NCBI GenBank assembly: GCA_013140985.1
Contig: JABFRU010000021.1
Span: 62,001 to 126,000, forward strand
Direction: 5' to 3'
Source: Chitinophagaceae bacterium
GTDB taxonomy: Bacteria > Bacteroidota > Bacteroidia > Chitinophagales > Chitinophagaceae
Length of the DNA: 64,000 nucleotides
The notes beneath the pieces were generated by a model that worked only from the letters and a program-made list of their open reading frames with translations, did not search any database and was not told where the DNA came from. Shown one piece after another: positions 42,935-62,629 of the stretch (the stretch's first letter is position 1; each line of letters opens with the position of its first letter). The position numbers and the translations under genes were made by a program.

Positions 42935-43007
42935 CTAGTAGGGATAAGACCCTGCATAATCAAGCTTTTCTATCCTACTTGCTACTCCCTACTTCCTACT
43001 CGCTATC
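42934..43007. repeat. Inverted-arm micro-tandem element, locus C
   Basis: Right arm CTACTTG CTACTCC CTACTTC CTACTCG (period 7, 42975..43002); shorter left arm GCTAGTAGGGATAAGAC. Confidence 0.75.
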
Positions 43008-46857: not shown

Positions 46858-48876
46858 ATGACTTTTGACAGAAAGGAACTATCCAACGAACAGCTTATTG
46901 ATCTTTATAAAAAATTGCTGTGGCCCCGCATGATAGAAGATAAAATGCTGGTGCTGCTGCGGCAGGGAAAAATTTCCAAATGGTTCAGCGGGATAGGACA
47001 GGAAGCAATATCTGTTGGCGCTACATCGGCATTGCAGGAAGATGAATGGATCATGCCCCTGCACAGGAACCTCGGCGTTTTTACTACCCGTAATATGCCA
47101 TTGAATCAATTATTCAAACAATGGCAGGGCGCACAGGAAGGTTACAGCAAAGGAAGAGAGAGAAGTTTTCATTTTGGCAATAAGGAACATCATATCTGCG
47201 GGATGATCTCTCACCTGGGTCCGCAGCTCGCCATTGCAGATGGGGTTGCATTGGCGTATAAATTAAGAAAGGAAAAAAAAGTTGCTCTTGCTTTCACTGG
47301 TGATGGCGGAACAAGTGAAGGTGATTTTCATGAAGCAGTAAACGTAGCAGCGGTGTGGGACCTGCCCGTCATTTTTATTATTGAGAACAATGGTTACGGA
47401 TTAAGTACACCGGTCAATGAACAATACCGTTGCATCAGTTTAGTGGATAAAGCCAAAGGATATGGCATGGAAGGAGTGGCGATTGACGGTAATAATATTT
47501 TATCTGTGTATGATACTATAAAAGGTGTCCGGGATTATTGTATCAGGCATCAGAAGCCTTACTTAATTGAATGTCTCACTTTCAGGATGAGGGGACATGA
47601 AGAAGCCAGCGGAACGAAATATGTACCACAGGACCTGTTCCGATTGTGGGAGCAAAAAGATCCGATCAAGAATTATGAAAGATATCTTATTGAAGCCGGT
47701 GTGATCAATGAAATGAAAGTAGCGGATATAAGAAATGAATTCAAAGAAAAAATCGAAAGTGAATTAGCCATTGGATTTGATACAAAACCTGTCGTGGCAG
47801 ATACAGAAGAGGAATTGGAAGATGTTTATGCAAGAACAGAAGTCAGGGGTCAGAAGCCAGGGGTCAGAATCGTTGATAACTCAGCATCCAATTCTGACAT
47901 CGGGCATCCGACTTCAGACCTTCGCCTCATTGATGCTATTAGCCAGGGGCTGAAACAATCAATGCAGCAACACACAAACTTGATCCTCATGGGCCAGGAT
48001 ATTGCAGAATATGGCGGTGCATTTAAAATAACAGAAGGATTTGTGCAGGAATTCGGAAAAGAAAGAGTGAGAAATACTCCATTATGTGAAAGTGCAATCG
48101 TTGGAACAGCATTGGGATTATCGCTGGAAGGTTATAAGAGCATGATGGAAATGCAGTTTGCTGATTTTGTTACGGTGGGGTTTAATCAAATTGTAAATAA
48201 TTTGGCGAAGATCCATTATCGCTGGGGACAAAATGCAGATGTTGTAATAAGAATGCCGACTGGTGGCGGAGTCGGCGCCGGTCCTTTTCATTCGCAGAGC
48301 AATGAAGCATGGTTCACCAAAGTGCCGGGTCTGAAAGTAGTTTATCCATCTACACCTATTGATGCAAAAGGATTGCTGATCGCTGCGATCAATGATCCAA
48401 ATCCAGTCATGTATTTTGAGCATAAAGCATTGTATCGTTCTGTGAGCGGCCCTGTGCCGGAAGATTATTATGAAATTGAAATTGGAAAAGCAAGACATGT
48501 AAGAGAAGGCGATGAGGTTTCCATTATTACTTATGGAGCCGGCGTTCATTGGGCGGAAGATTACGCTGCCGAGCATCCTGAAATTTCTATCGATATACTT
48601 GACCTTCGAACATTAGCCCCATTGGATTATTTATCAATCCGGGGAGCAGTACAACGAACGGGAAGAGTATTGATATTGCATGAAGACAGCCTGATCGGTG
48701 GTATCGGCGGAGAGATCGCAGCCTGGATCGCTGAGAATTGCTTTGCTATTTTAGATGCACCGGTGATGCGATGTGCGTCGCTGGATACTCCAGTTCCTTT
48801 TTCCATAGAGTTGGAGCAGAATTTCCTTGCTAAATCAAGATTGGATGAGGCCGTTCAGAAACTGATCTCCTATTGA
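46858..48876 (+). CDS. Fused alpha/beta 2-oxoacid dehydrogenase E1 component (track start 46765)
   Basis: TPP motif GDGGTSEGDFHEAVNVAAVWDLPVIFIIENNGYG (alpha) followed by beta half GQDIAEYGGAFKITEGF...LCESAIVGTALGLSLEGYKSMMEMQFADF. Confidence 0.92.
   Translation: MTFDRKELSNEQLIDLYKKLLWPRMIEDKMLVLLRQGKISKWFSGIGQEAISVGATSALQEDEWIMPLHRNLGVFTTRNMPLNQLFKQWQGAQEGYSKGRERSFHFGNKEHHICGMISHLGPQLAIADGVALAYKLRKEKKVALAFTGDGGTSEGDFHEAVNVAAVWDLPVIFIIENNGYGLSTPVNEQYRCISLVDKAKGYGMEGVAIDGNNILSVYDTIKGVRDYCIRHQKPYLIECLTFRMRGHEEASGTKYVPQDLFRLWEQKDPIKNYERYLIEAGVINEMKVADIRNEFKEKIESELAIGFDTKPVVADTEEELEDVYARTEVRGQKPGVRIVDNSASNSDIGHPTSDLRLIDAISQGLKQSMQQHTNLILMGQDIAEYGGAFKITEGFVQEFGKERVRNTPLCESAIVGTALGLSLEGYKSMMEMQFADFVTVGFNQIVNNLAKIHYRWGQNADVVIRMPTGGGVGAGPFHSQSNEAWFTKVPGLKVVYPSTPIDAKGLLIAAINDPNPVMYFEHKALYRSVSGPVPEDYYEIEIGKARHVREGDEVSIITYGAGVHWAEDYAAEHPEISIDILDLRTLAPLDYLSIRGAVQRTGRVLILHEDSLIGGIGGEIAAWIAENCFAILDAPVMRCASLDTPVPFSIELEQNFLAKSRLDEAVQKLISY
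47837..47925. repeat. Inverted-arm micro-tandem element, locus D, inside the E1 ORF
   Basis: AGTCAGG GGTCAGA AGCCAGG GGTCAGA (47841..47868, period 7); GTCAGAAT/ATTCTGAC 8-bp perfect stem. Confidence 0.85.
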
Positions 48877-59944: not shown

Positions 59945-60050
59945 AAGTCAGAAGAGGTCAAATGGGTCATATAAGTCAAATTAGTCAAAGACCGCTTTAT
60001 GAAAGCTGCAGGATATGACCAGTATGACCTGCATGACTTATGTGACTATG
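59945..60050. repeat. Inverted-arm micro-tandem element, locus H (period 9)
   Basis: AGGTCAAAT GGGTCATAT AAGTCAAAT TAGTCAAAG (59955..59990) and ATATGACCA GTATGACCT GCATGACTT ATGTGACTA (60013..60048). Confidence 0.9.
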
Positions 60051-60941
60051 CTACTTTAATAAACTTTCAATTACTTGGGAATAGTGCTCATGCTCCAGCT
60101 TATGAATACGCTGAGCCAATGATTCTGCCGTATCGGATGATAGTACAGGACAACGGGCCTGGAAAATGGTTTTTCCATGATCATACACTTCATCCACATA
60201 ATGAATAGTGATGCCGCTTTCATTTTCCCCTGCATTGATGACGGCCTGGTGCACCGCCTTTCCATACATTCCTTTGCCGCCATACTTAGGTAATAATGCC
60301 GGGTGAATATTAATGATCTTGCCGGGGTACATAGTTATCAATGCAGCAGGTATCTTCCAGAGAAAGCCGGCGAGTACTATAAAACCGATTGTATGTTCTT
60401 CCAACTCCTTTATATATGCATCACCCCGGATGAATCTTTCTTTTTCTATCAATAAAACAGGAATTCCTTCTTTGTTGGCTATCTGCAAAACACCAGCCGA
60501 TGGATTGTTGCAAACAATAAGCGATACATTAATAGAGGGATGACTACGGAAATGGTCAATGATCTTTTGTGCATTGGAACCTGCACCGGAAGCGAACACG
60601 GCAATATGAGAAGTAAGAGTCGATAGATGAGACTCCTCTGACTTCTGACTCCTGACCCCTGACCTCCCGATCCCCATTCTTCTACCGATCTTCTTTATAT
60701 ACTTACAGAAAAACGGAAATTGACCGAATGGAATGCTGACAAGCAGAACAGCCAGCGGCCAAAGCAATGTAACCAGTAAAATATAAACAATAACCCATAG
60801 CCAGGTGGGGCCGATCGGAAAAATCGGCATTAGTTTTTTGCCAATAAAGCCGGTAGCACTGCCGCCAATAGCAAAAGTGGCTATGATCAGCACAAACTGC
60901 CAACCTTTTACCTTCCATTTTTTTTGTAATCGTTCAAACAT
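60051..60941 (-). CDS. purN: Fusion of a DUF6787-like membrane domain and phosphoribosylglycinamide formyltransferase
   Basis: C-terminal HIAVFASGAGSNAQKIIDHF...INIHPALLPKYGGKGMYG...GITIHYVDEVYDHGKTI (PurN); N-terminal ~90 aa two-TM domain. Confidence 0.88.
   Translation of the reverse strand: MFERLQKKWKVKGWQFVLIIATFAIGGSATGFIGKKLMPIFPIGPTWLWVIVYILLVTLLWPLAVLLVSIPFGQFPFFCKYIKKIGRRMGIGRSGVRSQKSEESHLSTLTSHIAVFASGAGSNAQKIIDHFRSHPSINVSLIVCNNPSAGVLQIANKEGIPVLLIEKERFIRGDAYIKELEEHTIGFIVLAGFLWKIPAALITMYPGKIINIHPALLPKYGGKGMYGKAVHQAVINAGENESGITIHYVDEVYDHGKTIFQARCPVLSSDTAESLAQRIHKLEHEHYSQVIESLLK
60606..60673. repeat. Inverted-arm micro-tandem element, locus I, inside the DUF6787-PurN ORF
   Basis: CTGACTT CTGACTC CTGACCC CTGACCT (60638..60665, period 7) plus short opposite arm GAGAAGTAAGAGTC. 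Confidence 0.85.
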
Positions 60942-61235: not shown

Positions 61236-62492
61236 ATGATTCCATGTAAACCAATCGGCCAAAGACTTACCACTTTATTCCTTTCTGTTTTTGTTTTTTC
61301 ATTCATCAATATTGTTTCAGCACAGGACGGTAAAACTATTTTTAATAACAAGTGTGCCAGCTGCCATACAATGGGTAAGGATGCTATTGGCCCGAACCTG
61401 CAAGGAGTGGTAAGCAGGTGGGAGAGCATGGATATGTTACGGATGTGGATCAAAGATTTTAATAAAGCAATTGCTGCTGGTTCTCCAAGAGCTAAAGAAG
61501 TAGTTACTTTTTCACCTACCTCTATGCAGATGTTTGATGGCAACATTACAGAGGATGAATTGACTGCTGTTATTGACTATGCAGATAAATGGCAACCTCC
61601 GGTAGTTCAAACACCAAATGGGGAACCCCAAAAAGGAAATGACAACGCCGTCATCTTCGGAGTCATCTCTCTTGTTCTTGCCATCATTGCATTGATCTTA
61701 ATGCAGGTGAACAGCAACCTGAAAAAACTGAGCGATGATGCAGAAGGTATTTCCCGCCCCGATCCTGTTCCTTTTTACAAGAACAAAGTATATATAGCCA
61801 TGATCGCTATCCTCTTTTTTATTGTGGGAGGATATTATGTTACCAAAGGTGCAATAGGTCTCGGCCGGCAAAAAGGTTATCAGCCTGTGCAGCCTATCTA
61901 TTATTCTCATAAAGTTCATGCCGGCATCAACCAGATCAATTGTTTATTCTGTCATGGCTCTGCATGGGAAAGTAAAACAGCCGGTATTCCCTCTGTGAAT
62001 GTTTGTATGAACTGTCACAAAGGGATCAATGAATATATAAAAGGACCAAAATTATATACTGAAGACGGTGAAGAAGTAAACGGTACTGCAGAGATCGCCA
62101 AATTGTATAAAGCAGCAGGATTCGACCCTAAAAATCCGGCTGCATGGGATCCTTCCATGGCCAAACCAATAGAATGGATCAAGATCCACAATCTTCCTGA
62201 CCATGTTTATTTCAACCACTCACAGCATATCAAAGCAGGAAAAGTACAATGCCAGACCTGTCATGGTGAGATTACTGAAATGGATGAAGTGAAGCAGGCA
62301 TCCGAGCTGAGCATGGGCTGGTGCGTGAACTGTCACCGCAATACCAAAGTGAACTTTAATTATACTGACAGCACGGGTAATAGGTTTTACAGCATTTATG
62401 AGAAATTCCATAATGATATTAAGACCGGCAAGATGGATAGTGTGACGGTAAAAGATATCGGCGGATTGGAATGCCAGAAATGCCATTACTAA
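61236..62492 (+). CDS. actA: Alternative complex III ActA-like multiheme cytochrome c with an N-terminal monoheme domain
   Basis: Six CxxCH: CASCH, CLFCH, CMNCH, CQTCH, CVNCH, CQKCH; TM between the first and the other five; followed by actB. Confidence 0.82.
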   Translation: MIPCKPIGQRLTTLFLSVFVFSFINIVSAQDGKTIFNNKCASCHTMGKDAIGPNLQGVVSRWESMDMLRMWIKDFNKAIAAGSPRAKEVVTFSPTSMQMFDGNITEDELTAVIDYADKWQPPVVQTPNGEPQKGNDNAVIFGVISLVLAIIALILMQVNSNLKKLSDDAEGISRPDPVPFYKNKVYIAMIAILFFIVGGYYVTKGAIGLGRQKGYQPVQPIYYSHKVHAGINQINCLFCHGSAWESKTAGIPSVNVCMNCHKGINEYIKGPKLYTEDGEEVNGTAEIAKLYKAAGFDPKNPAAWDPSMAKPIEWIKIHNLPDHVYFNHSQHIKAGKVQCQTCHGEITEMDEVKQASELSMGWCVNCHRNTKVNFNYTDSTGNRFYSIYEKFHNDIKTGKMDSVTVKDIGGLECQKCHY

Positions 62493-62629
62493 ATGAGAGA
62501 ATGTGAGAGTGTGAAAATGTGAGAATGAACATTGAAAGAATATAAATTAATGTTTTAATAAAAGATAATGTAAGAAAAGTCGGTGATCGCTATTTTCACA
62601 TTTACCACATCTTCACATTATCACATTAG
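62492..62629. repeat. Inverted-arm micro-tandem element, locus J (period 8)
   Basis: AATGAGAG AATGTGAG AGTGTGAA AATGTGAG (62492..62523) and TTTTCACA TTTACCACA TCTTCACA TTATCACA (62593..62625). Confidence 0.85.

Follow-up and report, generated by a model that had tools for sequence, protein, structure and literature searches.

A membrane-domain DUF6787–PurN fusion recurrent in Chitinophagaceae and a seven-nucleotide repeat within its linker

In the window, the 64-kb stretch of Chitinophagaceae DNA that was analysed, the GAR transformylase PurN shares one open reading frame with an N-terminal DUF6787 domain, and four tandem 7-nt repeats lie at the junction of the two. The reading that best accounts for the evidence jointly, and in which we place considerable confidence, is that the gene would specify a membrane-held DUF6787-PurN chain, that fusion occurred repeatedly by loss of a stop codon, and that the heptamers are a later passenger.

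The reading frame runs for 296 codons without an internal stop, and both of its domains score above curated cutoffs, which bears out the first-pass annotation of a two-TM N-domain and PurN in a single ORF. DUF6787 (PF20584) was matched at residues 18-91 with 33.2 bits against a Pfam gathering cutoff of 27.5, Formyl_trans_N (PF00551, Pfam) at residues 112-291, and the NCBIfam PurN equivalog TIGR00639 at residues 112-295 with 154.5 bits against a curated cutoff of 150.1. The C-terminal part resembles known PurN/GAR transformylases (TIGR00639, PF00551, 3av3) in sequence, fold and catalytic Asn-His-Asp: when aligned to PDB 3av3, the formyl transferase fold and the catalytic triad are both present, and N211, H213 and D254, which we take to be the equivalents of E. 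coli N106, H108 and D144, are invariant in all 20 fusions compared. It differs from known PurN in carrying the N-terminal two-TM domain, and matches in the PDB cover the PurN part only. DUF6787, a two-TM domain of ∼80 residues, forms a small protein of its own in many relatives, from a gene immediately preceding purN, whereas in the window it lacks a terminating stop and runs on into PurN. A literature search for DUF6787 found no paper naming it, and nothing relevant to a membrane-tethered PurN or to Chitinophaga heptamers appeared in the literature searched, although absence from it is not proof of novelty.

The fused gene is the sole PurN-level match in its genome, all remaining matches being weak formyltransferase relatives, and no purT scored over the cutoff in that genome, suggesting from sequence that the PurN of the fused protein is probably the only GAR transformylase of the cell. 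Between this genome (G000) and its relative G021, differences per codon position number 27/16/47 in the N-domain and 37/29/98 in PurN, a pattern indicating purifying selection on both alike.

An AlphaFold2 model based on 20 of the fused sequences had a mean pLDDT of 83.5. Helices at residues 13-40 and 47-69, a third helix at 75-89 and the PurN fold that follows were all modelled with confidence, and the top Foldseek match of the model was GAR transformylase 3av3. The first two helices likely form a membrane hairpin, with the third helix next in the chain. Across residues 93-107 pLDDT falls below 50, so that the residues encoded by the heptamers lie inside a predicted flexible linker. The hairpin is rich in Lys and Arg at both ends which, by the positive-inside rule, suggests that both ends and PurN itself are cytoplasmic. 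In the predicted product, a single chain, DUF6787 would form a two-helix hairpin whose ends are both cytoplasmic and which bears a normal PurN on a disordered linker; as a consequence, GAR transformylase would be kept against the cytoplasmic face of the membrane.

Table 1. Positions in the window of the fused gene, its parts and a second heptamer array.
Feature	Position	Strand	Basis or remark
Fused gene DUF6787-PurN	60051..60941	minus	296 aa, stop codon included; ORF and both profile matches
DUF6787 membrane domain (putative), residues 1-91	60669..60941	minus	Pfam PF20584, hydropathy, AlphaFold2 model
M89, possible secondary start	60675..60677	minus	sole in-frame ATG between TM2 and PurN; not kept as ATG elsewhere
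Flexible linker (predicted), residues 93-110	60612..60665	minus	low pLDDT; length and sequence hypervariable among fusions
Four tandem heptamers RGTCAGR, R93 to first base of E102	60638..60665	minus	pattern search; genome-wide family
PurN (GAR transformylase) domain, residues 111-296, with N211, H213, D254	60054..60611	minus	TIGR00639; PDB sequence and fold matches, 3av3 best
Locus D, second in-ORF array of the same heptamer family	47833..47868	plus	linker joining fused PDH E1-alpha and E1-beta

The four CTGACYY heptamers that had been reported between the N-domain and PurN were confirmed. Their plus-strand units, CTGACTT, CTGACTC, CTGACCC and CTGACCT, have starts at 60638, 60645, 60652 and 60659 and correspond to RGTCAGR in sense. 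The peptide that they encode is RSGVRSQKSE; the claim that the whole of a longer quoted peptide was heptamer-encoded did not hold, as ESHLSTLTS lies outside the repeats, which cover only about residues 93-102. Nowhere else in the window do three or more GTCAG cores follow one another at 7-nt intervals, and no such run arose in 100 order-3 Markov simulations. The likeness noted earlier between this peptide and that of locus D is real, the array at locus D being of the same heptamer family and also situated in a linker. G021 shares the locus D array, after which comes a partly inverted arm that encodes SDIGHPTSDLR. Other short repeats were also observed in the window. A 7/14-nt tandem array at 42974-43005 (CCTACTTCCTACTC) has a unit unlike the heptamer, and two 8-nt tandem arrays at 62491-62528 and 62592-62628 (AATGTGAG; ATTATCAC) are located directly past a multihaem cytochrome-like gene ending at 62492. 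Between the purN stop and the next gene (59945-60050), 9-nt-spaced GTCA (from 59957) stands opposite 9-nt-spaced TGAC (from 60016), and this inverted pair might fold into a hairpin or serve as a terminator.

Arrays were surveyed across genomes by pattern only (RRGTCAGRRGTCAGRRGTCAGR, up to 3 mismatches, with the reversed pattern as control). In the genome of the window 49 matches were obtained, against 1 for the control, in about 26 places: 19 arrays in sense-strand ORFs, one antisense at the selD start, and six at gene ends or in intergenic DNA. The arrays within ORFs are in frame and on the sense strand, and occupy loops or linkers of conserved enzymes. By NCBIfam, the carriers comprise an RluB/RluF-type pseudouridine synthase, DprA, QueE, the fused PDH E1 alpha-beta of locus D, two ABC-F proteins, an ECF sigma factor (at its C-terminus), an IcmF-type mutase, PaaZ, the B12-dependent ribonucleotide reductase NrdJ, MiaB, MutS, a GsiA-like ABC ATPase, PDH E2, UvrA, MazG, the TIGR00275 flavoprotein and CysS. 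G021 and G027 also carry arrays, G027 with fewer in ORFs. The pattern was found in 18 of 59 genomes, 15 of them in the genus of the window and all 15 of at least 2.6 Mb; members of the genus of about 1.5-2.1 Mb all lack arrays, which are present in 15 of the 20 larger ones. The unit, RGTCAGR / GAGTCRG, has dialects by genome, with GAGTCGG in G027 and AAGTCAG commoner in G000 and G021.

Read in sense, GTCAGRR is stop-free in all frames and gives the peptide V-R-S-Q-K-S-E, whereas the reverse orientation contains TGA, which is enough to account for the sense bias. We propose that the heptamers belong to a 7-nt repeat family specific to the lineage, one that would accumulate, presumably neutrally, in unconstrained sequence, and that in-frame copies survive in loops and linkers because they are stop-free in sense and encode a soluble, flexible peptide. 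Rickettsia palindromic elements are selfish, long palindromic insertions that are tolerated in frame within conserved genes. The heptamers share this in-frame tolerance but differ in being 7-nt tandem units, usually without a significant fold, and in not being clean insertions, since there is no consistent gain in length relative to orthologs. When 32 arrays were folded against shuffles, most z values were between -2 and 2 (-0.8 at the fused gene of the window), and a palindromic element was rejected. Strong predicted folds were confined to a few arrays, among them the intergenic L262 (G021:C3:826016-826058), with a hairpin (z -5.7) of GTCAGAG heptads on the left and CTCTGAC heptads on the right.

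Parallels can also be drawn with the TAACTGA tandem heptamers of Beggiatoaceae, cyanobacteria and five Bacteroidetes, of which 24 sets in one genome lie in or overlap ORFs, chiefly at the ends of proteins (MacGregor 2015, PMC4679880). Both families consist of tandem 7-nt units dispersed in many copies per genome, with a patchy spread and some stop-free copies in ORFs. The repeats described here differ in their unit, which is not TAACTGA, and in position: TAACTGA arrays are mostly intergenic, before start codons, whereas most of those in G000 fall within ORFs and occupy loops inside conserved enzymes.

How arrays come to occupy coding loops was approached by comparing 17 in-ORF arrays with their orthologs in four same-genus genomes. 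In 25 of the 67 comparisons the lengths did not differ; in the remainder both longer and shorter loops occurred, and in QueE, PaaZ and the TIGR00275 flavoprotein loop length was essentially constant while the DNA had turned heptameric. Since ortholog loops are often equal in length, the arrays are not simple insertions; they may have arisen by slippage followed by trimming, or by copying from other arrays. A tentative possibility is that active copying, through template switching or gene conversion between arrays, spreads heptamers over loops with length kept, as the unchanged lengths and the differing dialects of the genomes would favour. Against this, loop length may be held by selection once an insertion has occurred, neither a donor nor an enzyme or target motif for copying was found, and the array-free orthologous loops of G009 and G027 show no general pre-adaptation to the heptamer. 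Attraction by microhomology was rejected, as loops of distant orthologs are not generally heptamer-like. Several of the arrays, in DprA, PDH E1, PaaZ, UvrA and ABC-F, are shared with G021. Active copying concerns the origin of the arrays and is compatible with the explanation of the fusion preferred here. A wider form of the idea, in which a 7-nt repeat that is stop-free one way actively rewrites loops and linkers of conserved enzymes, in many cases at constant length, and so spreads through coding DNA as a tolerated passenger, with the PurN linker as a recurrent landing place, is likewise conceivable but doubtful.

To place the fused gene among its relatives, 111 PurN loci were collected from a scan of named genomes and relatives; five split loci proved to be duplicate contig copies, leaving 106 distinct loci. 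DUF6787 is fused to PurN in 41 (that of the window included), separate in 34, and not found within the stretch examined in 31; the stand-alone adjacent orthologs that the first-pass annotation suggested looking for thus exist. Among named genera, one-frame fusions occur in Flavihumibacter, Pseudoflavitalea, Sediminibacterium and Ferruginibacter. In the genus of the window the two are mostly separate adjacent genes, with one frame also in G021, G028, G009 and G007, whose linkers (for example IPPLKLSLSPV, VKAPAAPEVSEPV, GRQAADSVHR and AGGSKLEVTTKQPENSVFR) are heptamer-free and unrelated. Fusion linkers vary in length, from a few residues to about 60, and have no sequence in common. The DUF6787-PurN fusion is old and common in Chitinophagaceae, and sequencing error as the source of the single ORF is excluded because the same fusion recurs in many assemblies. 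A separate lineage was also seen to have array-like linkers, in L083 (REKSGVGSRESGVTPATSNLKPQTSEP) and L085 (SRKPEAGGQKPGITSNPRPQTSDP), the DNA of the former showing a second heptamer arm of CTCAAAC type.

It is improbable that PurN is translated instead from an internal start, at M89 or a non-standard codon, with the upstream frame accidental or DUF6787 a mere by-product. M89 is in frame, 22 residues ahead of the first PurN strand, and a strong Shine-Dalgarno is not required in Bacteroidota; but M89 lies in the tail of DUF6787 and is not conserved, and in the stretch that leads from TM2 to the first strand of PurN 21 of the 41 fusions contain no ATG and five contain none of ATG, GTG and TTG. 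As no stop ends DUF6787 alone, the long product would be unavoidable if DUF6787 is translated. The internal purN start raised in the first-pass annotation accordingly fails as a general rule; an extra start at M89 is possible in the gene of the window and may add a second product.

Joining by stop-codon loss is the reading favoured by the distribution of fused and split loci. In 29 of the 34 split loci the two genes are on the same strand with a gap of at most 140 bp, and gaps are mostly 14-140 bp, so that loss of the intervening stop codon offers a simple route to fusion. On a PurN tree of 105 rows, the support values of which are rough because the bootstrap was unsettled, the fused state requires about 21 changes, at least four of them forced by well-supported branches, indicating that fusion or fission happened repeatedly. 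G000, G021, G028 and G030 group together with support (98/84), yet in G030 DUF6787 and purN are 1.4 kb apart, and this split inside a fused clade makes the history of the fusion uncertain. Most likely, the fusion arose several times by stop-codon loss between neighbouring genes, an event that would have been repeated (or reversed) among adjacent co-oriented genes in Chitinophagaceae. Since G021 and G028 are fused yet heptamer-free within the clade of G000, parsimony suggests that the heptamers postdate the fusion; they would have entered the linker later in the G000 line, as passenger rather than creator.

The first-pass annotation had instead proposed that read-through of a former intergenic heptamer element gave rise to a membrane-tethered PurN. 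One polypeptide with a membrane domain is supported; the heptamer element as its origin is not, and we regard it as very unlikely, because many fused relatives, in and beyond the genus, have heptamer-free, unrelated linkers, two of the four same-genus examples falling in the same tree clade. This is the observation that the first-pass annotation itself had named as refuting its proposal. The repeats do sit exactly at the DUF6787/PurN junction and are stop-free in sense, the linker of L083 bears the same kind of array and that of L085 a more loosely related peptide, and in the split locus of G031 DUF6787 ends in a heptamer-like tail, GSRKSEES, that reaches its stop codon, making heptamers at a gene end before fusion conceivable in principle. 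Nevertheless, none of the 34 split loci has two or more heptamers in the DUF6787-purN gap, and heptamers are found mid-protein in many proteins without recent fusion.

Taken together, these findings suggest that many Chitinophagaceae may tether one step of purine synthesis to the membrane, with implications for enzyme clustering and for the role of DUF6787. Simple repeats can, it appears, build up inside essential genes if they are stop-free in one orientation, and the heptamer arrays, as natural recurrent linker sequences, would provide a clean system for studying the spread of short repeats.
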